Shown piece by piece: positions 88 through 58,516 of a stretch of 58,516 bases of DNA. The translations under genes and the position numbers were made by a program. The stretch is from positions 1 through 58,516 of the forward strand of contig JAIMBO010000005.1 in NCBI GenBank assembly GCA_023511405.1, read 5' to 3'. Position 1 is the stretch's first letter. Each line of letters opens with the position of its first letter. The notes under the pieces are model-generated. The model saw only the letters and a program-made list of their open reading frames with translations, had not been told where the DNA came from and did not search any database. Source of the stretch: Rubrobacteraceae bacterium (GTDB taxonomy: Bacteria > Actinomycetota > Rubrobacteria > Rubrobacterales > Rubrobacteraceae).

Positions 88-705
88 TCACCGCGGCCTT
101 TTCTGGAAGAGAAGCCTGAGGAGGAAGACTTTGAGGGGAGTCTCGGATCCTTTCATGTCTTCTCCGACCCCTTCGAGGCGTCTTACTGCCACTATCATCA
201 GCAGGAGGATGGATCCGGCTGCGTATGCCGGTGAGGAGCCGGTTAAGATCGTGAAGCAGGCGTAGAATAGAAAACCCGAGATGGTTCCCAGGGAGGTCTG
301 GCGTATCGCTGCTCCCGCCGCGTAGGTGGTCACCAGCACGAAGAATCCGGCCGGGTTCATCGCCGTCGCGGCTCCGGTTCCGACTCCGAGCGCCCGGCCC
401 CCTCTGAAGCCCAGGAAGACCGGCCATCCGTAGCCGACGACCGCTCCCAGCGCGGCCGAGACGACCGTGGCGTCGGAGGCCCCCAGAAACCGGGCGGTGA
501 GGGGTGGGAGGAGCCCCTGCAGGAAGACGCCGAGGGCAGTGATGGCCGCCGCCAGGCGTCCGGCGTGCTCGGCGACGTTGGCGGCTCCTATGTTGCCGGT
601 CCCGTAGCGCCGGATGTCTATCCCCGAGAGCAGCCGGGTGACGATGAGCCCGATGGGGATGGCCCCGACGAGGTACGAGAGAGCGAAGGCCAGAAGCTGA
701 GCCAT
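88..705 (-). CDS. plsY: PlsY-like glycerol-3-phosphate acyltransferase, paralogue 1
   Basis: This 205-residue integral membrane protein is of the PlsY (acyl-phosphate:glycerol-3-phosphate acyltransferase) family, which makes lysophosphatidate from acyl phosphate at the cytoplasmic membrane. The first PlsY motif is present (GTGNIGAANV, about residues 36-45) and the third is recognisable (FRGGRALGVGTG, about 100-111). The second motif, normally K-G-x-x-P, reads QGLLPP, so the conserved lysine is glutamine. Length and hydrophobicity fit the usual five-helix enzyme. It follows a second paralogue by 1 base and is surely cotranscribed with it. Either this copy is catalytically altered or the two act together. 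Confidence 0.82.
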   Translation of the reverse strand: MAQLLAFALSYLVGAIPIGLIVTRLLSGIDIRRYGTGNIGAANVAEHAGRLAAAITALGVFLQGLLPPLTARFLGASDATVVSAALGAVVGYGWPVFLGFRGGRALGVGTGAATAMNPAGFFVLVTTYAAGAAIRQTSLGTISGFLFYACFTILTGSSPAYAAGSILLLMIVAVRRLEGVGEDMKGSETPLKVFLLRLLFQKRPR

Positions 706-706
706 C

Positions 707-1438
707 TCAGAGGGCGGTGTCCCTGTCGTAGAGCAACCTGTAGACCAGTATCGCGCCTGCCTCGCGGGGCTCGCGGACGGGGATTGGCCTTGCCGTGGCC
801 CTCCGGATCAGGAGCACGAAGGCGTTCGCGGCCGTGCCCGCCACTACTTTTTCGTCGTACCCTTTCACCGAGCAGAGGAGCGGGAGGGAGCAGACGGCGA
901 GCGCGACCGAGAGGGGGCCGGACCTGGTCCGGGTGGTCTGCCGGTGCAGAAGGCCTCTCGCCCCGGCCTCTCCGGTCAGGGGTGGCAAAATCCTCAGGAT
1001 CCTCTCCGAGGCCATCGTCCCCAGGAAGACCGGCATGGCTCGGGGAGCCAGCATCAGGCTTGCGCCTATGAGTGGGGCGACGCCCCTGCCACCGGAGAAG
1101 GAGAGGAAGATGGGCCAGCACTGACCGGCCACCCCGGCAGTTGCTCCTGAACAGGCCAGGATCTCCTCTGTCTTTTCGTCTTCGATTGGGAGGATGGTTT
1201 TGGCCAGAAGGGGGGGCAGGGCGCCCTTGGAGAGGTCGGCGAGCCAGCCTGAGAGGGCGAGGGCGGGGCTTTTGGTACTCTGGAAGAGGTTGGCTGCGCC
1301 GACGTTTTTTGATCCGGTTTTTTTGAGGTCTATATTTTTTTTCTTTGCGAGGAGGGCTACGAAGGGCACCGAGCCGTAGAGGTAACTCAACAGGGCGTAC
1401 GCTCCGATCCCGGCGGCCTTTTTCGCATCGTACTCCAT
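707..1438 (-). CDS. plsY: PlsY-like glycerol-3-phosphate acyltransferase, paralogue 2
   Basis: This is a 243-residue PlsY-family membrane protein and the first gene of a two-gene unit. All three family motifs can be seen: SKNVGAANL (about 42-50), KGALPPLLAK with the conserved lysine (about 70-79) and FSGGRGVAPL (about 113-122). The 40 C-terminal residues extend past the normal PlsY end. A TATACT-like -10 element on the minus strand at 1453-1458 would start RNA about 8 bases before the ATG, giving a nearly leaderless message; I see no clear -35. It is divergent from the unknown gene at 1513. Compared with paralogue 1 this copy keeps the canonical lysine, so it is the better candidate for the active enzyme. 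Confidence 0.82.
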   Translation of the reverse strand: MEYDAKKAAGIGAYALLSYLYGSVPFVALLAKKKNIDLKKTGSKNVGAANLFQSTKSPALALSGWLADLSKGALPPLLAKTILPIEDEKTEEILACSGATAGVAGQCWPIFLSFSGGRGVAPLIGASLMLAPRAMPVFLGTMASERILRILPPLTGEAGARGLLHRQTTRTRSGPLSVALAVCSLPLLCSVKGYDEKVVAGTAANAFVLLIRRATARPIPVREPREAGAILVYRLLYDRDTAL

Positions 1439-43718: not shown

Positions 43719-45014
43719 TCAGCCGCGCTCTCGGCTGACCTCGAACTGGGCCTCCTCGGTCGAGCCGGTGAGCGCCGTGGTCGAGGCGAGCCCCCCGGCG
43801 ACGACCTGCGCGACGTCGTCGAAGTAGCCGGCCCCGACCTCGCGCTGGTGCCTGGTGGCGGTGTAGCCGCGCTCCTCCGCCTCGAACTCGGCCCGTTGCA
43901 GGCGGGCGTAGGCCGCCATACCTTCGTCGCGGTAACCGTCGGCGAGGTCGAACATGGAGTAGTTGAGCGCGTGGAACCCGGCGAGGGTGACGAACTGGAA
44001 GCGGTAACCCATCTCTCCGAGCTTCTCCTGGAAGCTCGCGATCTCCTCCTCGGAGAGGTTGCGCTCCCAGTTGAACGAGGGCGAACAGTTGTAGGCGAGC
44101 AGCTTCCCGGGATAACGTTCGTGGATCCCCTCCGCGAACTCCCGCGCCTCCCCCAGGTCCGGCGTGGACGTCTCGCACCAGATGACGTCCGCGTAAGGAG
44201 CGTAGGCTATCCCGCGGGCGATGGCGTGCTCGAGCCCGTTTCTCACCCGGTAGAAGCCCTCCACCGTCCTCTCGCCCGTTATGAACGGCTCGTCCGCCGG
44301 GTCGACGTCGGAGGTTATCAGCTTGGCGGCCTCCGCGTCGGTGCGGGCGATGATCACCGTCGGAACCCCCATGACGTCCGCGGCGAGCCGGGCCGAGATG
44401 AGGTTCCGTATCGCCTGGGAGGTGGGGAGCAGAACCTTCCCGCCCATGTGCCCGCACTTCTTCTCCGAGGAAAGCTGATCCTCGAAGTGCACCCCGGCGG
44501 CCCCGGCCTCGATCATGGCCTTCATCAGCTCGAAGACGTTGAGCGCCCCGCCGAACCCGGCCTCGGCGTCGGCGACTATTGGAGCGTACCAGTAGACGCC
44601 GTCCCTGCCCTCGGCGTGGTGTATCTCATCGGCCCTCCTGAGCGCCCGGTTGATGCGCCGCACGAGCTCGGGCGCGCTGTTGGCCGGGTAGAGGCTCTGA
44701 TCCGGGTAGGTCTGCCCGGCGAGGTTGGCGTCGGCGGCGACCTGCCAGCCGGAGAGGTAGATGGCCTCCAGACCGGCCTTGACCTGCTGGACGGCCTGGT
44801 TCCCGGTCATCGCACCCAGAGCCCGCACGAACGGACGCTCGTGCATCAGCCTCCAGAGCCTCTCCGCTCCCATCCTGGCCAGCGTGTGCTCGAAGCGCAC
44901 CGACCCCGCGAGCCGGGAGACGTCCTCGGCGGAGTAGGGACGCTCGATCCCCTCCCACCGCTCATCCTCCCAGCTCTTCTCTATCTCCGTCGGATCCATC
45001 CCAGACATCGTCAC
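43719..45014 (-). CDS. aceA: Isocitrate lyase
   Basis: A 431-residue enzyme that splits isocitrate into glyoxylate and succinate, the entry to the glyoxylate shunt for growth on C2 units. The catalytic Cys motif [14 protein letters not shown] is at about residues 184-197, with [11 protein letters not shown] just before it and the TPSPSFNW-like substrate loop [11 protein letters not shown] near 322. Length is standard. GTG 45014 has GGAGG five bases upstream. It is followed by a strong terminator and preceded by a small unknown gene and a divergent LysR gene. It may work with the acetoacetate-forming operon at 47-58 kb. Confidence 0.95.
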
Positions 45015-45419: not shown

Positions 45420-46379
45420 ATGCTTTTCAAGCAGATAGAGTGCTTTCTGGCGGTGGCGCGGCTGGGCAACGTGAGCCGGGCGGCGGAGGAGATGTTTCTC
45501 ACGCAGCCGACGCTCACGGCGAGGATAAAGGCTCTGGAGGAGGAACTCGGAGCTCAGTTGTTCGCGAGGACGAGCCGGGGGATGCGGCTGACGGAGGCCG
45601 GCAAGGAGTTTCTGCCGCACGCCGAGCGTGTGATGAAGAGCGTCGAGGAGGGCCGGCGGAAGATAGAAGAATTAAACGGGCTGACGGGTGGTCGGCTCGT
45701 CATCGGATCTTCGCCGGGGGTAAGCACCTACGCGCTGCCGGCGCTTCTGGAGCGTTTCTCCGGGGCGTATCCGAAGGTTTCGATCTCGGTGAGGACCGGG
45801 CATTCGGAGGACGTGCTGCAGATGGTGCTCGACGACGAGGTGCAGCTGGGGCTTGCGCGCGAGATGCAGCACGCCGAGGTGGAGAGCATACCACTTTATG
45901 AAGACGAGCTGGTCCTCGTGGTCTATCCAGAACACGCCTTCACGGAGAAGGGGACGGCAACGCTCGGCGAGGTGAGCAGAGAGCAGATCGTCATGTTCGA
46001 CACCGCGTCGAGCTACTACGGCCTCACCCGCGACCTGTTGCGCAAAGCCGGAGTCACCCGGTTCCGCACCCTCGAGCTGGACAACATAGAGGCGGCCAAG
46101 CGGATGGTCGAGCATCGCCTGGGGGTCGCGTTTTTGCCCCGCACCGCCGTGGTCCGGGCGGTCGAAGCCGGGAGGCTGTGCATCATAGAGCTGGAGGACG
46201 CGCCGAGGACGCGCCGGCCGATCGTGGCGCTCCGGCGCAAGGATCTCCCCTCCCCTCCCCCGGTTGAAGCCTTCCTGGAGATCGCCTCCCAGATGGGACA
46301 GAAGAAGAGCCGGGCGGAGCTCTCTCCGGCCCTCGCGGCAGAGTTCGAGAACCTGCAGCTCATGGACCTCTTCACTTAA
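45420..46379 (+). CDS. LysR-family transcriptional regulator
   Basis: A 319-residue LysR-type regulator. The winged helix-turn-helix is at about residues 1-60 (IECFLAVARLGNVSRAAEEM, then FLTQPTLTARIKALEEELGA), followed by a type-2 periplasmic-binding-like effector domain (about 90-295). ATG 45420 has GGAGGA just upstream. It is divergent from the small gene and aceA, the classic layout in which a LysR protein controls its neighbour and itself. The glyoxylate-shunt link is inferred only from position. It is convergent with rnc. Confidence 0.92.
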   Translation: MLFKQIECFLAVARLGNVSRAAEEMFLTQPTLTARIKALEEELGAQLFARTSRGMRLTEAGKEFLPHAERVMKSVEEGRRKIEELNGLTGGRLVIGSSPGVSTYALPALLERFSGAYPKVSISVRTGHSEDVLQMVLDDEVQLGLAREMQHAEVESIPLYEDELVLVVYPEHAFTEKGTATLGEVSREQIVMFDTASSYYGLTRDLLRKAGVTRFRTLELDNIEAAKRMVEHRLGVAFLPRTAVVRAVEAGRLCIIELEDAPRTRRPIVALRRKDLPSPPPVEAFLEIASQMGQKKSRAELSPALAAEFENLQLMDLFT

Positions 46380-47292: not shown

Positions 47293-49275
47293 TCAATCTC
47301 CGTCTTCGCAGCTTCGGTGCCTCGCGTATGCGGCGAAGGCGTCGAGGGCAGCCGGGTCGAGGAGGGAGTCGCGGCTCGCGACCTCCTCCGGGCGGGCGCC
47401 GCGCAGGATGCGCTTGACGGGCACCTCGAGCTTCTTCTGGGAGAGCGTCCGGGGTATGGAGGGGACGGCCTCGATGGCGTCGGGGACGTGGCGCGGGGAG
47501 AGCTCGCGGCGGAGGGTGGCGGCGATGCGGGAGCGCAGGCGCTCGTCGAGCTCTGTGCCCGGCGCCGGGACGACGAAGAGCAAGAGCTCGCCGGGTCCGC
47601 CCTCGGCGTCTTCGAGGTGGACGACGAGGCTGTCGGCGACCTCCTCGAGGGACTCGACTACGGAGTAGATCTCCCCGGTCCCCAGGCGCACACCGCCGCG
47701 GTTGAGCGTCGCGTCCGAGCGGCCGGAGATCACGCAGCTTCCGCGCTCGGTGAAGCGGATCCAGTCGCCGTGGCACCAGACGCCCGGGAAACGCTCGAAG
47801 TACGCGGCGCGGTAGCGCCTGTCTCCGGGGTCGTTCCAGAAGCCGAGCGGCATCGAGGGCATGGGAGAGCGGATCACGAGCTCCCCGAACTCGCCGACGA
47901 CCGGTCGGCCGCGCTCATCGTAGGCGGCGGCGTCGACCCCGAGGCAGGGGCCGGAGATCTCACCCCGGTAGACCGGCTGCAGCGGGCTCCCCTGCACGAT
48001 GCCGGTGCACACATCGGTCCCCCCGCTGCCTATGTTCAGCAGCACGTCGGGTCCGAGCTGCTCGTAGACCCAGTCGAAGCCCTCCGGCGGCAGCGGGCTC
48101 CCCGCCGCCCCTATCTGCCGCACGCTCGAGAGGTCGAACTCCCGACCTACCTCGAGGCCGGCCTTGCGGCAGGCCATGAGGTAGGCCGGGGCGACGCCGA
48201 GCATCGTCGCGCCGGTCTGCTCGGCCAGCCGCCACTGGAAGGCGAGATCCGGGTAGAGCGGGTTGCCGTCCATGGTGACTATCGCCGACCGCAGGAGCAG
48301 CGCCGAGACGAGGGCGTTCCACATCATCCAGGCGGTAGTCGTGAACCACATCAGCCGGGCTCCGGGACGGAGATCCCAGGTCAGACCCAGGTTCTTGAGG
48401 TGTTCGAGGAGGATGCCGCCGTGCCCGTGCACTATGGCCTTGGGTTTGCCGGTGGTGCCCGAGGAGAAGAGCACGTAGAGCGGATGGTCGAAGGGCACCG
48501 GCTCGCAGCGGAGCGGCTCCTCCTCCGAGAGCAGCTCCTCCCAACCGACCGAATCCGGCAGAACGTCCTCCGCCCCTCCGACGTACGGGACGTGCACGAC
48601 GTGCTCCAGCGTGGGCAGCGCCCGCCGGATGTCCCGCACCTCCGCCCGGCGGTCGATGTGCTTCTCCCCGTAGCGGTAGCCCGTCACCGCGAGCAGCACC
48701 TTGGGGTCGAGCTGCCCGAAGCGGTCGATCACGCTGCGCGGGCCGAACTCCGGCGCACAGGTTACCCAGATGGCCCCCAGGCTCGCGGTGGCGAGAAAGG
48801 CCACGACCGTCTCCGGGACGTTCGGGAGGTAGGCAGCGACGCGGTCGCCGGGGCCAACCCCCAGGCGCCGGAGCCCGGCGCGGGCCCGCGCTACCTGCTC
48901 GCGCAGCTCGCCGAAGGTCAGCTCGAAGGGAGCCCGCGTCTGGGAGTGGGCGAAGATGGCGACCTCTCCGTCGTCGCCCGAGGGGGTGAGGATCCTCTCC
49001 GCGTAGTTCAGGCGCGCGCCCGGGAACCAGCGGGCGCCGGGCATCTCGCGCGCGGCGAGCACCCGTTCGGGAGGGGTGTGGGCGCGCACGCCGTAGAAGT
49101 CCCAGACAGAGCGCCAGAACGCCTCGAGATCCCCCACCGACCAGCGCCAGAGCTCGTCGTAACCCTCGAACTTGAGGGCGCGCTCCTCGCGCAGCCAGCG
49201 CACGTAGCGTCCGATCTCGGTGGTCTTCAGGACGTCCGGAGGCGGCATCCAGAGCACCTCGCCCGTCAGAGCCAC
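47293..49275 (-). CDS. aacS: Acetoacetyl-CoA synthetase
   Basis: A 660-residue ANL-superfamily acid-CoA ligase of the acetoacetate type (acetoacetate + ATP + CoA to acetoacetyl-CoA + AMP + PPi). The N-terminus carries the acetyl-CoA-synthetase-like extension with GARWFPGARLNYAERIL. The adenylation motif is LFSSGTTGKPKAIVHGHGG (about 264-282), then ISGRSDATLNRGGVRLGTGE and the catalytic lysine near the end (TLSQKKLEVPVKRIL). GTG 49275 overlaps the HAD gene by 10 bases. It is the last gene of the eight-gene operon and points to acetoacetate or a similar beta-keto acid as the pathway product. Confidence 0.93.
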   Translation of the reverse strand: MALTGEVLWMPPPDVLKTTEIGRYVRWLREERALKFEGYDELWRWSVGDLEAFWRSVWDFYGVRAHTPPERVLAAREMPGARWFPGARLNYAERILTPSGDDGEVAIFAHSQTRAPFELTFGELREQVARARAGLRRLGVGPGDRVAAYLPNVPETVVAFLATASLGAIWVTCAPEFGPRSVIDRFGQLDPKVLLAVTGYRYGEKHIDRRAEVRDIRRALPTLEHVVHVPYVGGAEDVLPDSVGWEELLSEEEPLRCEPVPFDHPLYVLFSSGTTGKPKAIVHGHGGILLEHLKNLGLTWDLRPGARLMWFTTTAWMMWNALVSALLLRSAIVTMDGNPLYPDLAFQWRLAEQTGATMLGVAPAYLMACRKAGLEVGREFDLSSVRQIGAAGSPLPPEGFDWVYEQLGPDVLLNIGSGGTDVCTGIVQGSPLQPVYRGEISGPCLGVDAAAYDERGRPVVGEFGELVIRSPMPSMPLGFWNDPGDRRYRAAYFERFPGVWCHGDWIRFTERGSCVISGRSDATLNRGGVRLGTGEIYSVVESLEEVADSLVVHLEDAEGGPGELLLFVVPAPGTELDERLRSRIAATLRRELSPRHVPDAIEAVPSIPRTLSQKKLEVPVKRILRGARPEEVASRDSLLDPAALDAFAAYARHRSCEDGD

Positions 49276-50081
49276 TTCAGGATCTCCCCCACTCCCTCAA
49301 CCACCGCATCCGGGCGCCGGCGTTCCGGCACCCGCTGCAGGTCCACCGACCCGCTGGTTCCGCTGCGCACTAGGATGGTGAACGAGCCCCCCAGGCGACC
49401 CAGCCCGATATCCATGTCCAGGTCATCCCCGATGACAGCCATCTCCCGGGATTCCACCCCGAGCCGCTCGCAGGCCGCGCGCACCGCCATCCGCGAGGGT
49501 TTGCCGACCACGGTGGGACGCTTCCCCGTAGCCTTCACCAGCGCAGCGGTCACCATCGCGCCGCGGCTGAAGATCATACCGTTCGCCCCCCAGTAGCCGG
49601 GACCGTAGCTGGCCGTGAGAAGGGGCGCGCCCCGGGTGATGGCCCGCGCCGCGCGTTCCAGAGAGTCGAAGTCCACCTCGTTTACGTGGGTGACGAAGAC
49701 CACTTCGGCGTCCTCCCCGTCCGTGAGCGGCACGCCCGCCTCCGCCATGCGTTCGCGGGTCGTCTCGGAGCCGAAGACCATGGTCCGCCGTCCGCCGTGG
49801 CGGCGCGCCAGATACCCGAGCGCGCTGCAGACGGGGGTCAGGACCTCGTCGTCGCGCACGGGGAGCCCGCCCTCGCGCAGCCCCCGCGCGAACTCCTCGG
49901 GACGCAGGTGCGTGCCGTTGGTGAACAGCACGAGCGGCCGGCCGGAGGTCCGGATCTTCTCCAGCACCTCCGGCGCGCCGGGGAGCGGCCGCGGGTGAAA
50001 GCCGGCGTCGCGGTGCACGAGCGAGCCGTCCACGTCGAAGACGAACCCGCGTATCCTCTCAAGCTTCTTTGCGCCAGACAA
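49266..50081 (-). CDS. HAD-IIA family phosphatase (NagD/PGP-like)
   Basis: A 271-residue HAD hydrolase of subclass IIA, the group with NagD, 4-nitrophenyl-phosphatases and phosphoglycolate phosphatases. Motif I is FVFDVDGSLVHRD (about 13-25, nucleophile Asp), motif II FTNGT, the C2 cap covers about 85-180, then the motif III lysine in VVGKPSRMAV and motif IV GDDLDMDIGLG. Start TTG 50081 overlaps the carboxyltransferase gene by 23 bases. Position inside the operon suggests it dephosphorylates an intermediate or side product such as an enol phosphate; this is inference. A housekeeping role is the alternative. Confidence 0.88.
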   Translation of the reverse strand: MSGAKKLERIRGFVFDVDGSLVHRDAGFHPRPLPGAPEVLEKIRTSGRPLVLFTNGTHLRPEEFARGLREGGLPVRDDEVLTPVCSALGYLARRHGGRRTMVFGSETTRERMAEAGVPLTDGEDAEVVFVTHVNEVDFDSLERAARAITRGAPLLTASYGPGYWGANGMIFSRGAMVTAALVKATGKRPTVVGKPSRMAVRAACERLGVESREMAVIGDDLDMDIGLGRLGGSFTILVRSGTSGSVDLQRVPERRRPDAVVEGVGEILKWL

Positions 50082-51537
50082 TGGTATCCCCCGTACGTTC
50101 GTCTTCGAGCCTCAGATAAGAGATGGAGTCGCGCCTGGAGAGCTCGTGCAGGAGCCGCACGACCGGTGCGCGTCCGGGGCGCACCAGCGGCGCGCGTGGC
50201 CTGCCGCGCTCGGCGACCATGGCGTCCACCTGTTCCGCGGGCATCGTGAGGCGCAACAGCAGCTCTTCATCGGAGATCCGGCGACCGAAGCGCTCGCGGG
50301 CCCCGTCCAGAGAGATCGGCTCGAGATCCTTCAGCTCGGAGGCGCGCGGCGTCGAGAGCACGCGGTCGGCGACCTCGGGGTCGACGGGCGCCGGGGTCTC
50401 GTAGTAGTGCCCGAGGAAGTAGCGCACCATCTCGTCCGAGACCCTCGACCAGCGCTCGCCGGAGATGACGTTCATCACGGCCTGGGTAGCGACGAACTGC
50501 GAGACCGGGGTGACCATGATCGGGTAGCCCATCTCCGCGCGCACCCGGGGGACCTCCTCCAGGACGGCGTCGAAGAGCTCCGGCCGGCCCAGCTCCTGCA
50601 GCTGCCGACGGGTGGTGGAGATCATGCCCCCCGGCATCTGGTGCCGGAAGTAGGCGCCGTCGAACTCCCGCGGGCTGCCGGGCGGCAACCCGCGCTCGCG
50701 GGCCAGCTCGTCGAAGTACCCGGAGACGGCCTCGAGCGCCTCCGTATCCAGGTCGTACGAGAGGCCCTCGGCCTCCACGTTGCGCAGCGTGGATTTGGCG
50801 GGAGGATTCGAGCTTCCGCTCCCCAGCGGCTCCACCGCGGTGTGCAGCGTCCGCACCCCGGAGCGCAGCCCCTCGACGTAGGCGAGGGGACCGAGCCCGA
50901 TCGTGCAGTGGCTGTGGAGCTCGACCGGGCGGGGGGCGAAGCGCTCGATGAAGCCCGGGATCAGGGTGCGCACCGCCTCCGGCATCAGGAGCCCTCCCGG
51001 ATCCTTCAGGTAGAGCCGGTCGATGTCCTCGGAGCGGGAGACCGCTTCAGCCCGCTCCAGGTAGTAGTCGTGGGTGTGGACCGGGCTTATGGAGTAGGTC
51101 AGCCCGACGACGACCTCCTCGAAACCCTCCTCTCGTGCGACGCGGGCCATCCGGAGGAGCGCCTCGGGCTGGTTCGAGGGATCGACGATCTGGATCCTGC
51201 GCATCCCGTTGCGCACCCAGCAGCGGAAGGCCAGGCGCATGACGTCCTCGCCGGCGGGGACCCAACGGATGAAGCGCATGCCGGTGGTGATAAGCCCCAG
51301 CGGCGTGTTCGGCATGGCTGCGCTCACCAGCCGGATCCGCTCCCAGGGATCCTCCCGGTGGAAGCGGACGGAGACCGCCATGTGCGTGCTGGAGGTGAAG
51401 TCCAGAGCGTGGAAACCGACGCGGTCCATCGTCGGGGCTATGGCGAGGACGTCCTGGGTGGTGAGCCCGGTCGCGGACCACAGGCTCTGGTTGCCGTCGC
51501 GTATGGTCGTGTCGACGATCTCAACGGTATCGCTCAT
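50059..51537 (-). CDS. Biotin-dependent carboxyltransferase, pyruvate-carboxylase/5S type but divergent
   Basis: A 492-residue TIM-barrel carboxyltransferase related to the pyruvate carboxylase and transcarboxylase 5S domains. R13-D14-x-x-Q17-S18 (DTTIRDGNQS), the metal-bridging carboxy-lysine K178 in YLKDPGG and metal ligands H208/H210 in LHSHCTIGLG are kept, as is HQMPGGM. In the FRxFD motif, whose Arg binds the carboxylate of pyruvate, this protein reads RRIQIVD, with Gln116 at the Arg position. That suggests an acceptor without a carboxylate, for example a ketone. It shares ATGA with the biotin carboxylase stop. Standard annotation would be 'pyruvate carboxylase subunit B', which I think is wrong here. 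Confidence 0.88.
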   Translation of the reverse strand: MSDTVEIVDTTIRDGNQSLWSATGLTTQDVLAIAPTMDRVGFHALDFTSSTHMAVSVRFHREDPWERIRLVSAAMPNTPLGLITTGMRFIRWVPAGEDVMRLAFRCWVRNGMRRIQIVDPSNQPEALLRMARVAREEGFEEVVVGLTYSISPVHTHDYYLERAEAVSRSEDIDRLYLKDPGGLLMPEAVRTLIPGFIERFAPRPVELHSHCTIGLGPLAYVEGLRSGVRTLHTAVEPLGSGSSNPPAKSTLRNVEAEGLSYDLDTEALEAVSGYFDELARERGLPPGSPREFDGAYFRHQMPGGMISTTRRQLQELGRPELFDAVLEEVPRVRAEMGYPIMVTPVSQFVATQAVMNVISGERWSRVSDEMVRYFLGHYYETPAPVDPEVADRVLSTPRASELKDLEPISLDGARERFGRRISDEELLLRLTMPAEQVDAMVAERGRPRAPLVRPGRAPVVRLLHELSRRDSISYLRLEDERTGDTIVWRKEA

Positions 51538-52880
51538 GCCGCAAGCACCGCCTCCTCGAGCCAGGTCGTGTCCACCGCCGCATCGGTGAAGTCCGGGTGG
51601 GCGAGAACGTGCATCAGCAGCTCGCGGTTGGTGGGAACGCCCTCCACCACGAGCCCCTCGAGCGCCTCGCGCATCCTCTCGATCGCCCCTTCGCGGTCCC
51701 CGGCGCAGGAGACGAGCTTCGCCAACAGCGAGTCGTAGTAGGGGGGCACGAGCGTCCCCTCCTCACAGTGGGTGTCTACCCGCAAACCCTCGATCCCGGG
51801 GACCGAAAAACGCGAGATCCTGCCCGGGGTGGGGCGGAAGCTGTGGGCAGGGTCCTCCGCCGTCAGGCGGCACTCTATCGCATGCCCGCGAAACTCCACC
51901 TCCTCCTGCGAGAGGCCGAGCCTCTCACCAGCTGCGATCCTCAGCTGGTCCGCCACGAGGTCGCGCCCGGTCACCAACTCGGTCACCGGGTGCTCGACCT
52001 GAATGCGGCAGTTCATCTCCATGAAGAAGAACTCCCCGCTCTCGGCGTCGACCACGAACTCCACGGTGCCGAGGTTGCGGTAGCCGATCTCGCGGGCGAA
52101 GGCGACGGCCGCACCGTGGAGCGCCGCGCGCGTCCCGGCGTCCAGCCCGGGGGCCGGAGCCTCTTCGACGATCTTCTGGTAGCGCCGCTGCACCGAGCAG
52201 TCGCGCTCCCCGAAGTGGAGCACGCCGCCGTGCTCGTCCGCCGCCACCTGCACCTCGACGTGGCGGGCGCTCCGGATGAAGCGCTCCACATACAGGCGTT
52301 CGTCACCGAAGGCCGCCCCCGCCTCGGCGAGCGCGACCCCGAACAGCCGCTCCAGCTCCTCCCGGTCCCGGGCCAGCTTGATCCCCCGCCCGCCACCGCC
52401 CGCCGCGGCCTTCAGCAGCACCGGGTAGCCCGCCTCCTCGGCGAAGCGCAAAGCGTCGGCGAGCGCGCTCACCTCGCCGCCCGGGACGACCGGCAGCCCG
52501 GCCTCGGCCGCGACCTCGCGCGAGCGGAGCTTGTCCCCGGCCAGCTCTATCACCTCCGCGGGGGGCCCGACGAAGCGCAGTCCGTTCTCGCGCGCGGCGG
52601 CGGCCAGCGCGGGGTTCTCCGAGAGGAATCCGTAGCCGGGGTGGATGGCGTCGCAGCCGGTGCCGATCGCCGCCTGCACCACCGCGCCCACGTTCAGGTA
52701 GCTTTGCGCCGGTGACCCCGGCCCGATGCACACCCCCCGATCCGCCATGCGAACCGCCAGGCCGCCGCGGTCGGCTTCGGAGAACCCCACGACGGTCTCC
52801 AGCCCGAGCTCGCGGCAGGAACGGACGATCCGCACCGCGATCTCACCCCGGTTCGCCACGAAGACGCGTCTCATCTTCAC
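51534..52880 (-). CDS. Biotin carboxylase subunit (AccC-type)
   Basis: A 448-residue ATP-grasp enzyme that carboxylates the biotin of the carrier protein using bicarbonate. N-terminal VFVANRGEIAVRIVRS (about 6-21), Gly-rich ATP loop AAAGGGGRGIKLA (about 160-172), ERDCSVQRRYQKIVEEAPAP and the catalytic EMNCRIQVEHPVTE are all present. GTG 52880 forms a GTGA overlap with the BCCP stop; an ATG two codons later is possible. Placed between BCCP and carboxyltransferase, so the three make a complete biotin-dependent carboxylase. Confidence 0.94.
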   Translation of the reverse strand: MKMRRVFVANRGEIAVRIVRSCRELGLETVVGFSEADRGGLAVRMADRGVCIGPGSPAQSYLNVGAVVQAAIGTGCDAIHPGYGFLSENPALAAAARENGLRFVGPPAEVIELAGDKLRSREVAAEAGLPVVPGGEVSALADALRFAEEAGYPVLLKAAAGGGGRGIKLARDREELERLFGVALAEAGAAFGDERLYVERFIRSARHVEVQVAADEHGGVLHFGERDCSVQRRYQKIVEEAPAPGLDAGTRAALHGAAVAFAREIGYRNLGTVEFVVDAESGEFFFMEMNCRIQVEHPVTELVTGRDLVADQLRIAAGERLGLSQEEVEFRGHAIECRLTAEDPAHSFRPTPGRISRFSVPGIEGLRVDTHCEEGTLVPPYYDSLLAKLVSCAGDREGAIERMREALEGLVVEGVPTNRELLMHVLAHPDFTDAAVDTTWLEEAVLAA

Positions 52881-53353
52881 CGGTCGGGCTCCACCCGGAA
52901 GAGCGGCTGGCCGTACTCCACGAGCTCTCCGTTCTCCACGCACACCTCGGCTATCCTCCCGGAGACCCCGGCACGGATGGAGTTCATCATCTTCATGACC
53001 TCGATCAGGCACACCACCGTGTCCGGCTCGACCCGGCTCCCGACCTCGACGTAGGGCCTGGCCCCGGGCGCCTCGGCGCGGTAAAACGTGCCGACCATCG
53101 GCGCCTCAATGGTGAGGGCGCCATCGGCGGCCCTCCCGTCAGAAGCCTCCTGTCCGGAGGCCGGAGGTTCCTCCCGTTTCGGCGCCTCGATGAGACGCCG
53201 CTCGTCGCCACCCGCCTCAGGCTCCTCGCGCGGCGGTGCGCCGCCGCGCCGCACGTACAGCCTCAGCCCGTTCGTCTCGATCCTCAACTCGTCCAGGTCG
53301 GACTCGTCGATGATCCGCAGGATCTCACGCACATCGTCGTCCGAGAGCGGCAT
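52877..53353 (-). CDS. Biotin carboxyl carrier protein (AccB-type)
   Basis: A 158-residue carrier. The N-terminal 35 residues resemble the AccB dimer region; a Pro/Glu/Gly linker spans about 36-80; the biotinyl domain follows (EAPMVGTFYRAEAPGA, about 83-98) with the attachment site EVMKMMNS and biotinyl lysine K121. It starts on the base after the ATP-binding gene stops. AccB-type carriers normally serve acetyl-CoA carboxylase, but here no accA/accD is adjacent; the partner is a pyruvate-carboxylase-type transferase. Confidence 0.92.
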   Translation of the reverse strand: MPLSDDDVREILRIIDESDLDELRIETNGLRLYVRRGGAPPREEPEAGGDERRLIEAPKREEPPASGQEASDGRAADGALTIEAPMVGTFYRAEAPGARPYVEVGSRVEPDTVVCLIEVMKMMNSIRAGVSGRIAEVCVENGELVEYGQPLFRVEPDR

Positions 53354-54448
53354 TCAGGACCTGCCTCTTTCTTCGTCGGAGACAACACCAAACGTTCCCA
53401 TGACCAGCTCGATCGCCGACCGGGCCCGCGGAGGTCCCCCGCCCCTGCGGCGCACGGTGGTGACGGGCCGGGACTGGACCACGAACAGAGCGTCCGGGAG
53501 CCCCCTCCCCCGGGCGAGCGCCCACTCGATGTCCTGGTGGGTGCCGAAGTGCCGCTCCACGCGACGGGCGACCTCGACCAGCGCCCGCAGGTGCTCCTCC
53601 CCCAGACAGGGCGTCTCCTGCCGCTCCGGCTCCACCTCCACCGTCCGCACCCCGGCCGAGGCGGGGTCGGGCCGGTACTCCAGGTGCTTGCGGCCGATGG
53701 ACCGGTGCAGCACCTCACCGGTCACCTTGCTCAGCCGGTACTCGTCCGGGGTCACCTCCCCCGCCACGACCGCTTCGCCCAGCCCCCAGCTCGCGTTCAC
53801 CGCGACCGTGCTGGGATCGCCGCTGAGCGGGTTGCAGGTGAACATCACGCCGGCGACCTCGGCGTCGACCATCATCTGCACGGTGACCCCCATGGCCGGT
53901 TCGCTCCCCGCCGCGGCCATCCTGGCCCGGTAGCTCAGCGCCTCGGGGCTGTAGAGGCTGGCCCAGCACTTTCGGACCGCCTCGCACACGCTCTCCGCAC
54001 CGCGCACCCAGAGGTAGGTCTTCTGCTGGCCGGCGAAGGTGGCCTGCTCGCTGTCCTCGCCGACCGCGCTGGAGCGGACCGCCACGGGGGGATTCTCCTC
54101 GCCGGCGGCCTCCGAGATCTCGCGGTACCGGCGGAGGATCTCACCCTCCAGCTCTCCCGGCAGGGGAGCGGAGCAGATCAGGCGGGAGAGCTCGCCGGAG
54201 ACGCCCCGCAACCCCTCCACGTCGTCCGCGTCCAGCTCGCGCAGTACTTCCGAAACGCGCCCCCGGAGACCGTTCTCCTCCAGAAAGAGCCCGAACGCGC
54301 CGGTCGAGATGGCAAACCCGGGTGGCACCGGTATGCCGCTCGCCAGGAGCTCCCCGAGGTTCGCGCTCTTCCCGCCGAAGCGCGGCTCCGCGGCGCGCCT
54401 GAGCTCGTTCAACGGGACGGTGTGCCCGGACATAGCCGTACTAGCCAT
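53354..54448 (-). CDS. PEP-synthase-type ATP-binding protein (PPDK_N domain alone)
   Basis: A 364-residue protein made of only the ATP-grasp domain of PEP synthase/pyruvate phosphate dikinase. Visible motifs are GGKSANLGEL (about 25-34), PVPPGFAIST (about 40-49), VRSSAVGEDSEQATFAGQQ, the ATP-binding QMMVDAEVAGVMFTCNP, ASWGLGEAVVAGEVTPDEY and the end QDIEWAL then VVQSRPVT. In such enzymes this domain transfers the beta-phosphate of ATP to a histidine on a swivelling domain. The swivelling domain is encoded by the next gene upstream, which it overlaps by 8 bases. The same split occurs in phenylphosphate synthase. Confidence 0.9.
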   Translation of the reverse strand: MASTAMSGHTVPLNELRRAAEPRFGGKSANLGELLASGIPVPPGFAISTGAFGLFLEENGLRGRVSEVLRELDADDVEGLRGVSGELSRLICSAPLPGELEGEILRRYREISEAAGEENPPVAVRSSAVGEDSEQATFAGQQKTYLWVRGAESVCEAVRKCWASLYSPEALSYRARMAAAGSEPAMGVTVQMMVDAEVAGVMFTCNPLSGDPSTVAVNASWGLGEAVVAGEVTPDEYRLSKVTGEVLHRSIGRKHLEYRPDPASAGVRTVEVEPERQETPCLGEEHLRALVEVARRVERHFGTHQDIEWALARGRGLPDALFVVQSRPVTTVRRRGGGPPRARSAIELVMGTFGVVSDEERGRS

Positions 54449-56270
54449 CGAGGACCGTCACCCTCCCGTTCGTGCCGTCCACCCGCACCCGCTGGCCGGT
54501 CCTGATGCGGGACGTCGCCGTGCCGGTGCCGACCACGGCGGGCAGCCCGTACTCCCGCGAGACGATCGCGGCGTGGGACATGATCCCCCCGATGTCCGTG
54601 ACGGTGGCTTTGATCTTGCTGAAGATCGGAGCCCACGCCGGCGAGGTGGAGGTGCACACCAGGATCTCCCCGGCCCGCACCTCGGAGATCTCCTCGAGCG
54701 AGCGCACCACCCGCGCCGTTCCTTCCACCTTGCCCGGTGAGGCGGCGGCGCCGGCGAGCTCGTTGCCGCCCCCGTCGCGCTGCGCCCGCGCCCACTCCTG
54801 CAGCTGCTGCGGGGTGACCCCCCAGAGCATGGCGATCGCAGGATCCACGACCGCCTCCGGCATCCGACCCAAAGCGGGAGGCGGCGTCCACTCTTCGAGC
54901 CGCTTCAGGATCCGCTTGCGCCGCTCCACGATCTGCGGCCAGTGGTGCGGCCCGAGCGCCTCGCCGCCGGTCGACCAGGTAAGCGCGAGCTCCTCCAGCG
55001 CCTGCATCACCTCGTAGCGGGAGAGCTGGAAGATGTCCTCGCTCTCCTCGATGAAGCCGTGCCGGGCGAGCAGCGCGCCGAACTCCCGGATCTTGTTGAA
55101 GAACCGCGACTGGAACCAGTAGTCGCAGTAGAACTTGTGCTCCTCCACGTACGGGAAGACCTTGCGCGAGAGCCCGAGCAACTCCCGGAAGGTCTGCCGC
55201 GCCTCCTCGTCCATAAGCGCCTCGTACTCGCCGACGAGCCGGTCCCGCCGCTCGGCCAGCTCACGCGTGGGCCGCTCGATGTCCTCGCCGGCCTGCAGCG
55301 CCGCGATGTGCCCGATGAGCGAGCTGTAGGGGATGCTGGGGTCGTCGTGCCAGCTGCCGTAGTAGTGGTAGAGCCCGTCGCCGGTCCCCATGTTGAACCA
55401 CGGGTCCTTGACCTCCTCGAGCTCCTCGAGCCAGCGCCGCCCGGCGTCGCTGCGCCCGAGCTCGGCCTCTATCTCCTCCGGCGAACGCCCCTCCCGGAAG
55501 GCCTCCGCCACCCCGAGGTCTATCGCCAGCCGCGCCAGCCGCCGCAGCTCGGCGTCCGGCCGGAAGAGGACGACGTCGATGCCGGCGACCATCTGCGAGA
55601 TGTGCTGGTCGGGGATGTCGGGCAGGGCCTGCTTGCAGAACTCCGAGAAGGTCAGGTACGCCCCGTAGCCGAGCAGCAGAAACTCGAAGTGGTACTGCCA
55701 CATCCGCTCGATGCAGTCCAGCGCCCGCCGGTAGCTGGCGAGCAGCGTGGCCCAGCTCGGCTCCCCACCTTCGAAGACGACGGCCTCCGGCTCGTACTCC
55801 GGAAGACCGGGGACTGGTATCTCGGAGACCTCGCGGTTGAGCGCCTCCATCCGCTCCCGCCAGCGGGCATAGAGCTCGTCCCAGTTCTCGTAGTAGTAGC
55901 CGGCGCGCTGCTGGAAGAAGCGCGACCGCTCGGCTATCTTCTCCGGATCGGTCACCGGGTTGGGCGAGATGTAGACGTAGCCGTTGACTATCCGGTAGTC
56001 GACCCCCATCGCCCCCGGTACCGCGAACGCCCGGTTCTGCCACCCCCCAAGCGCATAGTACGGCGTGTCGACCTCGACCATGTCGAACGCGGGCATCGGC
56101 ACCGGGAAGTGCATCGAGTTCCAGAACCACAGCCGGTTCTCGTCGTGCTCCCTGCGCCGCTCGTCGAAGAGCGCCCAAGGCGGGTACATCTCCTCCCACC
56201 CCTCACACCCCTCCGGTGTCTCGATCGAGAACGGGCTAGGAAAGTCTGTTGCTATTTCTTTTTTCGTCAT
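54441..56270 (-). CDS. Phosphohistidine (PEP-utilizer mobile) domain protein with a unique N-terminal substrate domain
   Basis: A 609-residue protein. The last 105 residues are the mobile phosphohistidine domain of PEP-utilising enzymes: SPGKVEGTARVV (about 509-520), then GGIMSHAAIVSREYGLPAVV with the phospho-acceptor His566. The first ~490 residues are Trp/Tyr-rich and mostly helical, contain no pyruvate/PEP barrel, and match no domain I can name; they resemble in plan the substrate-binding middle parts of phenylphosphate synthase and rifampicin phosphotransferase. With the ATP-binding protein it should form a two-protein dikinase (ATP to AMP + Pi + phosphorylated substrate). Its ATG is 2 bases after the GMC gene. 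Confidence 0.85.
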   Translation of the reverse strand: MTKKEIATDFPSPFSIETPEGCEGWEEMYPPWALFDERRREHDENRLWFWNSMHFPVPMPAFDMVEVDTPYYALGGWQNRAFAVPGAMGVDYRIVNGYVYISPNPVTDPEKIAERSRFFQQRAGYYYENWDELYARWRERMEALNREVSEIPVPGLPEYEPEAVVFEGGEPSWATLLASYRRALDCIERMWQYHFEFLLLGYGAYLTFSEFCKQALPDIPDQHISQMVAGIDVVLFRPDAELRRLARLAIDLGVAEAFREGRSPEEIEAELGRSDAGRRWLEELEEVKDPWFNMGTGDGLYHYYGSWHDDPSIPYSSLIGHIAALQAGEDIERPTRELAERRDRLVGEYEALMDEEARQTFRELLGLSRKVFPYVEEHKFYCDYWFQSRFFNKIREFGALLARHGFIEESEDIFQLSRYEVMQALEELALTWSTGGEALGPHHWPQIVERRKRILKRLEEWTPPPALGRMPEAVVDPAIAMLWGVTPQQLQEWARAQRDGGGNELAGAAASPGKVEGTARVVRSLEEISEVRAGEILVCTSTSPAWAPIFSKIKATVTDIGGIMSHAAIVSREYGLPAVVGTGTATSRIRTGQRVRVDGTNGRVTVLDG

Positions 56271-56272
56271 CT

Positions 56273-58216
56273 CTATATCCTCTCCACAATACCTCGGGCT
56301 ATCTTGTGCGCCACCGCCTCGATAGTCACCATCGGGTTCACCCCCAGCCCCGTGGGCAGCACCGAGCCGTCGACCACATACAACCCCTGCACGTCCCAGC
56401 TCTCACCCGTGGCATCGCATACCGACTCTCCGCGCGAAGCTCCCATACGAGCCGTGCCCATCAGATGAAAAGCTCCCAGAGTCACCTGAGCCGGGCCCCA
56501 ACCGCACCGGTCGGCTGCTAGAAGCATCTCCTCCCTGTTGCCCTTCCGGCCCGGTTCGTAGGTGACCCATCCGGCGTGAGACGAGTAGATGACCCGGGCA
56601 CCGCCGGCTTCGAGAATCTGTGCCGCACCATCCAGCCCCCGTCTCATCACCGCGCGGTCGAAGTCGGACAGAGTCCAGCGTGGCCTCGGAATGCCGTCAC
56701 GCCCCACGACGACCTCACCACCGTCGCGCGCCCGCTGAAGTGCCCCGTACCCGGCCGTGTAGCGGAGCGCCTGCATCAACTCGGCGCTCTCCCGTGCACC
56801 TCTCCAGGGGGCGAAGATCGCGAGGATGCTGGGAGGGGTGGCGGCCTGCTCGTACTTTATGCCGTACCCCTCACCGAGATCCAGAAGCTCGTCGGAGTAG
56901 GTAGCACCGAGCGTACCCTCCCAGGGTTTTATCTCCTCCTCAAAGATGCCCCATGTGAGAAGAACGGGGTGCAGCATGAGGTTCTTGCCTATTACGGGGT
57001 TGTCTATGCCCGAACGAATCATGATCGCCGGCGTGTGAATGGCTCCGGCGGCGAGCGCCACGATTCTGGCTCGTACGACAACCCTGTGACCGTCCCTCGT
57101 TCGCGCTTCCACACCCTGCACCCGCCCATTCTCTACCAGCACCCTCTTCACGGGAGCGTTCACGAGTAAGCGAGCCCCATTGTCGTAAGCGTCCTGAAGC
57201 CACGTCTTCAACGTCGACTGCTTGGCTCCGATCTGGCAACCGTAGTGGCAGAGCCGGCAGACATCCTCCCGACACCCCCGGCAGTTGCGCTGCATCACCT
57301 CCCAATGCCAGCCGAGAGCCTCAAACCCCTTGCGCATGACATGATCCCGCCTCGAAGGTATGCTGCTCTCGGTACCGATCGAGAGCCGCTCCCACACGGC
57401 ATCGATGCTCCTGCCGAAATCCTTGCTGGCCCACTCGGCGAGTCCGAAGCGCTCCTTCCACTCCTTGAGCACGTGCTCCGGCGGGCGGAAGCACCAGGTG
57501 TAGTTCACGACCGTACCACCCCCCAGACAGGAGCCGGCGAGCAGACCGATACTCTGGTCTTCGGCCGCTAGGTTGCCGCCGTCGAGATATAGGCGGGCGT
57601 AACCTGGAATCTCAGCCCCGTCGAAGTTCTCTTCGCTGTAATAGCCACCGGATTCGACGACGACCACGTCGAGTCCCGCAGCGGCGAGCACCCCCGCAGC
57701 GGTACCGCCCCCTGCCCCAGAGCCGACCACGCAAACGTCGCAGTCGAGCTCGGTATCCCCGGTCACCTCGAGCGGTCTGATGCTTTTCGGCGGTGGACTC
57801 TCCGGTGGTCCGAGCGGCCCCGGATAGCCGAGCCAATTCTCCACGGGGTCCGGCTCCTTCCCTTCGTGAGGCATGCAGTAGTACCCCAGCAGCACTCCCT
57901 TGCGGAACATCTGGAAGATTGCTCGCGACCTCGCATCAGGTGAGTCTGCGAGGCTCAACAGCACGCGCTCGCGCTCAGCCTGCGAGAGCGATGAGAAAGG
58001 AGCCTGCTCGGACCCGGCGATCTGTGTGTCCCACGTTTCGAGCAATGCCACGAAGGCGGCGCGGTCTTCGGAGGAAGGCGCGCTGCCCGCCGAGGCGAGC
58101 AACGCGTCTGGAACGCCACGCTCGGTGGCGGACGGAAGCCCGTCGATACCCGGTGCGAAGGTATCACATATCGCTTCGAGAGCCCTGCGAGCCTCACCGT
58201 CTATCTCGATGGACAT
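56273..58216 (-). CDS. GMC-family FAD alcohol oxidoreductase, long-chain alcohol oxidase type
   Basis: A 647-residue flavoprotein. Residues about 1-140 form a helical N-terminal domain like that of long-chain alcohol oxidases (gluconate-dehydrogenase-subunit-3-like). The FAD-binding GxGxxG is in VVGSGAGGGTAAGVLAAAG (about 164-182). A cysteine-rich stretch C-x2-C-x4-C-x2-C-x3-C (NCRGCREDVCRLCHYGCQIG) precedes KQSTLKTWLQDA, the FAO-type signature. The C-terminal GMC motif has HLMGTARMG and GLGVNPMVT with catalytic-type His and Asn. No export signal. First gene of the operon: it would oxidise an alcohol to the ketone or aldehyde used downstream. Substrate unknown. Confidence 0.9.
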   Translation of the reverse strand: MSIEIDGEARRALEAICDTFAPGIDGLPSATERGVPDALLASAGSAPSSEDRAAFVALLETWDTQIAGSEQAPFSSLSQAERERVLLSLADSPDARSRAIFQMFRKGVLLGYYCMPHEGKEPDPVENWLGYPGPLGPPESPPPKSIRPLEVTGDTELDCDVCVVGSGAGGGTAAGVLAAAGLDVVVVESGGYYSEENFDGAEIPGYARLYLDGGNLAAEDQSIGLLAGSCLGGGTVVNYTWCFRPPEHVLKEWKERFGLAEWASKDFGRSIDAVWERLSIGTESSIPSRRDHVMRKGFEALGWHWEVMQRNCRGCREDVCRLCHYGCQIGAKQSTLKTWLQDAYDNGARLLVNAPVKRVLVENGRVQGVEARTRDGHRVVVRARIVALAAGAIHTPAIMIRSGIDNPVIGKNLMLHPVLLTWGIFEEEIKPWEGTLGATYSDELLDLGEGYGIKYEQAATPPSILAIFAPWRGARESAELMQALRYTAGYGALQRARDGGEVVVGRDGIPRPRWTLSDFDRAVMRRGLDGAAQILEAGGARVIYSSHAGWVTYEPGRKGNREEMLLAADRCGWGPAQVTLGAFHLMGTARMGASRGESVCDATGESWDVQGLYVVDGSVLPTGLGVNPMVTIEAVAHKIARGIVERI

Positions 58217-58432: not shown

Positions 58433-58516
58433 CTACCTCCTGTAGGCGGTGCGGGCGTACTCGACCAGGGGAGCGGGCTGCACGGTGGCCCTTATCTCCA
58501 CCTGCCTGTGCTCCTC
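58433..58516 (-). CDS. 3' end of an unidentified gene (partial)
   Basis: A minus-strand frame enters from the right edge and ends at TAG 58435-58433. The 27 visible residues contain VEIRATVQPAPLVEYARTAY. That is too little to name a family. It ends about 28 bases before the -35 of the GMC operon, with no hairpin between, so read-through into the operon is possible. Confidence 0.5.
   Translation of the reverse strand, partial: EEHRQVEIRATVQPAPLVEYARTAYRR

Follow-up and report, generated by a model that had tools for sequence, protein, structure and literature searches.

The two kinase genes of the window, by which we mean the whole 58,516-nucleotide stretch of Rubrobacteraceae DNA that was analysed, very probably encode an ATP-dependent dikinase of the HpeHI type for the lignin-derived phenolic ketones acetovanillone and 4-hydroxyacetophenone, heading an Hpe-type catabolic operon. 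The pair and its operon are members of the known Hpe pathway and not a new enzyme type. The hpeHICBADEF operon is that of Rhodococcus rhodochrous GD02, whose purified kinase, carboxylase and phosphatase phosphorylate, carboxylate and dephosphorylate on the 4-hydroxyacetophenone and acetovanillone routes (PMC9618137, PMC12167813).

The initial annotation had described a split kinase with the ATP-grasp domain in a separate 364-residue protein, the phosphohistidine swivel at the end of a 609-residue protein and the PEP/pyruvate barrel in neither. Both open reading frames, which overlap by 8 nt, and the Pfam searches agree with this. PPDK_N at residues 23-334 (E 2.7e-105) was the sole Pfam match of the 364-residue protein and PEP-utilizers at residues 533-602 (E 1.2e-24) that of the 609-residue protein; Pfam gave no match to the barrel model in either. 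The phosphohistidine motif TDIGGIMSH, with His566, satisfies T/SxxGGxxxH with methionine replacing the regulatory threonine, which is the motif of two-component phenolic dikinases (PMC12167813). Together, domains and motif support the earlier view of a split dikinase with His566 as the likely phosphocarrier. Residues 1-490 of the 609-residue protein contain 3.5% W, 4.9% Y and 5.3% F, exceeding the other operon proteins, and are mostly helical in the AlphaFold model, so that the description of this part as a Trp/Tyr-rich helical domain holds. Homologues of the 609-residue protein were found in many phyla with 47-94% identity among the matches listed, and full-length NCBIfam models cover it (NF006153, 1052 bits); the split is therefore not a chance feature. 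The kinase of Rubrobacter taiwanensis, the nearest named genome, was 93-94% identical among the matches listed.

The fold of the N-terminal domain of about 490 residues was analysed with an AlphaFold model of the 609-residue protein, built from 49 homologues (pLDDT 91.8, pTM 0.91). In a Foldseek search against the PDB, rifampin phosphotransferase (RPH) was the sole whole-chain match, with a best E of 3.4e-18, 18% identity, a TM-score of 0.61 by query and an rmsd of 8.0. PPDK, PtsI and pyruvate kinase matched over stretches of about 100-235 columns that included the swivel. The whole-chain match supports the earlier suggestion that an RPH-like third domain replaces the PEP barrel, and HpeH has also been reported as rifampin-phosphotransferase-like (PMC12167813). 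A degenerate PEP barrel was rejected on the confident helical, RPH-like model, and membership in PEP synthase was rejected since the C-terminal TIM barrel is absent and the fold match is confined to the swivel. The pair is also not a rifampin phosphotransferase, as it consists of two chains and scored 124 bits with the rph equivalog model NF041857, where the cut-off is 999. The domain had been called unfamiliar; its modelled fold identifies it as the substrate domain found in two-component phenolic dikinases, namely HpeH, CreH and PpsA (described in PMC9618137 and PMC12167813). The architecture of the HpeHI type, a separate ATP-grasp protein and a partner with an RPH-like substrate domain and a C-terminal swivel, is found here. 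The best PDB match of the ATP-grasp protein was 9goj (E 2.6e-85), which has just the title 'Phosphoenolpyruvate synthase'. Since the ATP-grasp protein from the complete hpe-type operon on the Rhodococcus plasmid JS3073 (locus L034) is 97% identical to 9goj, we infer that 9goj is the published HpeI crystal structure (PMC12167813).

The operon spans positions 47293-58216 on the minus strand. Kinase H, kinase I, the biotin carboxyl carrier protein (BCCP), the biotin carboxylase, the carboxyltransferase, the HAD phosphatase and the acyl-CoA ligase are encoded together and in this order, by reading frames that overlap, abut or lie 2 nt apart. The GMC oxidoreductase gene is a probable operon member, and its enzyme may supply the ketone from a carbinol. 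It is missing from this position in two single-contig Rubrobacter relatives (G008 and G019), and an extra GMC oxidoreductase accompanies some kinases of the Rubrobacter/Solirubrobacterales clade. The last 84 bases of the window, directly upstream of the GMC gene, form the 3' end of a ligM gene (96% over 27 amino acids). The genes downstream of the acyl-CoA ligase gene are unrelated and mostly of the housekeeping kind.

Features of the kinase-carboxylase operon and the adjoining gene end in the window
Feature	Position	Strand	Evidence or remark
ligM-type O-demethylase gene, 3' end, 27 codons + stop	58433..58516	-	contig end cuts gene
GMC-family FAD oxidoreductase, N-terminal Gluconate_2-dh3 domain, 647 aa	56273..58216	-	Pfam
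HpeH-like kinase subunit, 609 aa	54441..56270	-	RPH-like substrate domain ~1-490, phosphohistidine swivel ~505-608, His566
HpeI-like ATP-grasp subunit, 364 aa	53354..54448	-	best PDB match 9goj
Biotin carboxyl carrier protein (HpeC-like)	52877..53353	-	biotin site EVMKM, Lys121
Biotin carboxylase subunit, 448 aa	51534..52880	-	Pfam, NCBIfam
Carboxyltransferase subunit, 492 aa	50059..51537	-	HMGL-like + PYC_OADA
NagD-like HAD phosphatase, 271 aa (HpeD-like)	49266..50081	-	FDVDGS motif
Acetoacetyl-CoA-synthetase-like acyl-CoA ligase, 660 aa (HpeE-like)	47293..49275	-	TIGR01217, 786 bits

Near the downstream side of the operon, an isocitrate-lyase-family gene (43719-45014, minus strand) and a divergent gene for a LysR-type regulator (45420-46379, plus strand) were seen. 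At the other end of the window, positions 88-1438 (minus strand) hold two adjoining genes of the glycerol-3-phosphate acyltransferase family (PF02660).

In the window's own assembly, the operon has no HpeF-like gene beside it. A homologue of the HpeF/CouO type is present elsewhere in the genome (contig C68); it is about 51% identical to the JS3073 amidohydrolase and a 91% homologue of one near the operon in R. taiwanensis. HpeF-like amidohydrolases were present in all five genomes tested. CouO belongs to the amidohydrolase superfamily (PMC4737184) and HpeF is 95% identical to it (PMC9618137). In the neighbourhoods examined, with near-duplicate loci counted, this amidohydrolase was observed at 7 of the 51 carboxylase-linked loci and at none of the 16 phenylphosphate-type loci, which supports the Hpe assignment without proving it.

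The type of the kinase was then analysed in a quick tree of 71 kinases with a midpoint root and SH-aLRT clade support. The labels were taken from tblastn of the neighbourhoods, and the rows labelled 'other' include contigs that end early. All 36 carboxylase-linked kinases, including those of the window and of JS3073, were inside one set of 47 rows (SH-aLRT 99); outside it were the 13 kinases with a ppcB homologue nearby and the one cresol-type kinase. The Rubrobacter and Solirubrobacterales kinases formed a clade of their own. NF006153 was the best NCBIfam submodel for the window and JS3073 kinases, NF006152 for the Azoarcus phenylphosphate-synthase homologue and NF006150 for a P450-linked Rhodococcus kinase. 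Judged by sequence, the window kinase belongs with the carboxylase-linked type, apart from the PpsA and CreH types. Kinase-carboxylase clusters of this kind occurred in several phyla among the neighbourhoods examined.

Further HpeH-like genes were observed. The same genome encodes a second, distant HpeH-like protein of 577 residues with 30% identity (L002, 1432-3165; G000:C113, 3377-5035). Its gene has a galactokinase-like gene on one side and, on the other, a gene for a GntR-like regulator followed by a cyclase-like gene, and no ATP-grasp partner was seen within the 4.7 kb read. At four loci of Thermomicrobium-type genomes (L033, L101, L102 and L105), the kinase pair precedes a biotin carboxylase gene that runs in the opposite direction, with BCCP and carboxyltransferase genes not nearby. 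At L058 and L088, two HpeH-like genes lie in one neighbourhood. At L047 (G001:C23, same genus) the HpeH reading breaks at about residue 440 and continues in a second frame that contains one TAG, owing either to a frameshift of the gene itself or to a fault in the assembly.

In G008 and G019 (loci L044, L045 and L150), pcaH, pcaG, pcaB, pcaD, a metF-like gene, the seven hpe genes, fhs, FTCD_C, folD, ligM and pobA all have the same orientation and are clustered in a stretch of about 20 kb. The ligM product of these relatives matched the LigM structures 5tl4 and 5x1i over its length (E 1.1e-162). In the window's genome, pcaHG (C193), pobA (C64) and further ligM copies are present as well. A Rieske vanillate demethylase was considered as a partner and set aside, as VanA_C matches were weak and missing in 3 of 5 Rubrobacter genomes and LigM homologues occurred in all five. 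We regard the cluster as a candidate lignin-ketone catabolic island, predicted from its genes to lead from acetovanillone to beta-ketoadipate. Acetovanillone is favoured as substrate because of the nearby ligM and 4-hydroxyacetophenone because of the nearby pobA; both may be used. No paper linking Rubrobacter to acetovanillone was found in a literature search. Stable-isotope probing of material from 52-62 C sites showed 13C enrichment of Rubrobacter MAGs by labelled lignin, and one of these MAGs carries a DesA-like demethylase (PMC9296663), which agrees with the proposed pathway.

In the proposed mechanism, the 364-residue ATP-grasp protein would bind ATP, and the swivel of its partner would accept the beta-phosphate on His566, converting ATP to AMP and Pi. 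The phosphorylated swivel would then swing to the RPH-like N-terminal domain, where the phosphate would be passed to the phenolic hydroxyl of a 4-hydroxyphenyl methyl ketone, either 4-hydroxyacetophenone or acetovanillone. Phosphorylation of a hydroxyl group, which the initial annotation had also expected, is probable. The methyl group of the phosphorylated ketone would be carboxylated by the biotin-dependent carboxylase; the HAD phosphatase would then remove the phosphate, and the acyl-CoA ligase would activate the dephosphorylated product with CoA. An amidohydrolase of the CouO/HpeF type, whose gene lies elsewhere in the genome, would split the activated product into acetyl-CoA (or acetate) and 4-hydroxybenzoate or vanillate. 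These would enter the pca pathway, 4-hydroxybenzoate via PobA and vanillate via tetrahydrofolate-dependent O-demethylation of the LigM type.

A new substrate had been expected from the N-terminal domain. The operon content, the tree position and the linked pca, pobA and ligM genes point instead to the known substrates acetovanillone and 4-hydroxyacetophenone. The same mechanism with another preferred hydroxyaryl ketone, such as acetosyringone or a hydroxyphenyl ketone with a longer chain, is unlikely. It would be in line with the separate clade of the Rubrobacter/Solirubrobacterales kinases, some with the added GMC oxidoreductase, and with the different substrate preferences of SYK-6 AcvAB and HpeHI (PMC13101465, PMC12167813), whereas the ligM and pobA genes next to the operon in the relatives are consistent with the products being vanillate and 4-hydroxybenzoate. 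That this clade phosphorylates a ketone beyond the known hydroxyphenylethanones, for example an enol trapped as its phosphate before biotin-dependent carboxylation, is in our estimate very unlikely; if true, ketone activation would here follow a new route. The ketone itself need not be phosphorylated, since HpeHI phosphorylates the phenol hydroxyl.

The enol oxygen would also be the target in a simple-ketone carboxylation, where acetone or a similar compound would be phosphorylated, the biotin enzyme would form acetoacetate and the last enzyme acetoacetyl-CoA, with the GMC oxidase perhaps as the ketone source. A GMC alcohol oxidase gene indeed adjoins the kinase, and the ligase passes the cut-off of the acetoacetate-CoA ligase model TIGR01217 (786 versus 520.9 bits), but the ligase of the JS3073 operon, the stand-in for HpeE, passes it too (766.5). 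The label therefore does not discriminate, and the acetone/acetoacetate pathway suggested by the ligase name is weakened. As such a route has no need for an HpeD-type phosphatase or for protocatechuate-catabolism neighbours, we consider it highly improbable. The chance that the pair is a phenylphosphate synthase acting on phenol or a CreHI-type 4-alkylphenol kinase is close to negligible. The window kinase shares 45% identity with the Azoarcus phenylphosphate-synthase homologue and 43% with the P450-linked Rhodococcus kinase, but those kinases are outside the 47-row set and fit other submodels best, and neither phenylphosphate carboxylase nor P450 genes were found near the window operon. These functions were rejected on operon content, tree and NCBIfam submodels.

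Taken together, our results extend the hydroxyphenylethanone pathway to Rubrobacter. The novelty is modest and lies in the clustering of Hpe operons there with pobA, pca and genes of tetrahydrofolate-dependent O-demethylation (ligM, metF-like, fhs, FTCD_C and folD). The genus includes known thermophiles, and the cluster is a candidate source of heat-stable enzymes for lignin use. The pathway prediction is directly testable because Rubrobacter genomes were labelled from lignin in that 52-62 C material (PMC9296663).

Among the known systems, PEP synthase shares the ATP-grasp and swivel domains with the window pair; its PEP/pyruvate barrel is absent here, and PEP/pyruvate enzymes match structurally at the swivel only. 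RPH has the same three domains and the predicted fold, but is a single chain acting on rifampin. The phenylphosphate synthase PpsAB, at 45% identity, is also a two-component dikinase and has this fold and mechanism, but it is linked to phenylphosphate carboxylase genes and outside the 47-row set. AcvABCDEF of Sphingobium lignivorans SYK-6 (PMC13101465), compared by description, likewise comprises kinase, carboxylase and phosphatase for hydroxyphenylethanones, but in a six-gene operon; according to a reference cited in PMC9296663, SYK-6 also employs LigM.

The direct comparison used the JS3073 plasmid locus, taken as near-identical, and 9goj as stand-ins for the characterised Rhodococcus operon, with the GD02, SYK-6, A. 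macra, C. glutamicum and Thauera sequences outside it. By these stand-ins the kinase subunits are about 44-50% identical to HpeHI, and since this is the closest characterised kinase type, the substrate preference in the window may differ. In contrast to the GD02 operon, the window operon is without an hpeF homologue, has an extra GMC oxidoreductase that is not in the published operon, and is adjoined by ligM and not by Rieske-type vanAB. In Table 1 of PMC9618137, HpeB is given as the carboxyltransferase and HpeA as the biotin carboxylase, with masses of 49.3 and 57.4 kDa; the stated masses and the gene order in JS3073, biotin carboxylase before carboxyltransferase, suggest that these labels may be swapped. 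Complete syntenous hpe clusters have been reported in just a handful of genomes (PMC9618137), and the Rhizobium leguminosarum plasmid pRlBT01c shows the identical seven-gene order, followed by an amidohydrolase gene. The window shares with GD02 the split kinase with its RPH-like substrate domain, swivel histidine and separate ATP-grasp protein, and a tight operon in which the three-part biotin carboxylase is encoded together with an HAD phosphatase and an acyl-CoA ligase. The complete hpe-type operon of JS3073 has the gene order and domain content of the window operon, and the proteins of the two operons are 32-59% identical.
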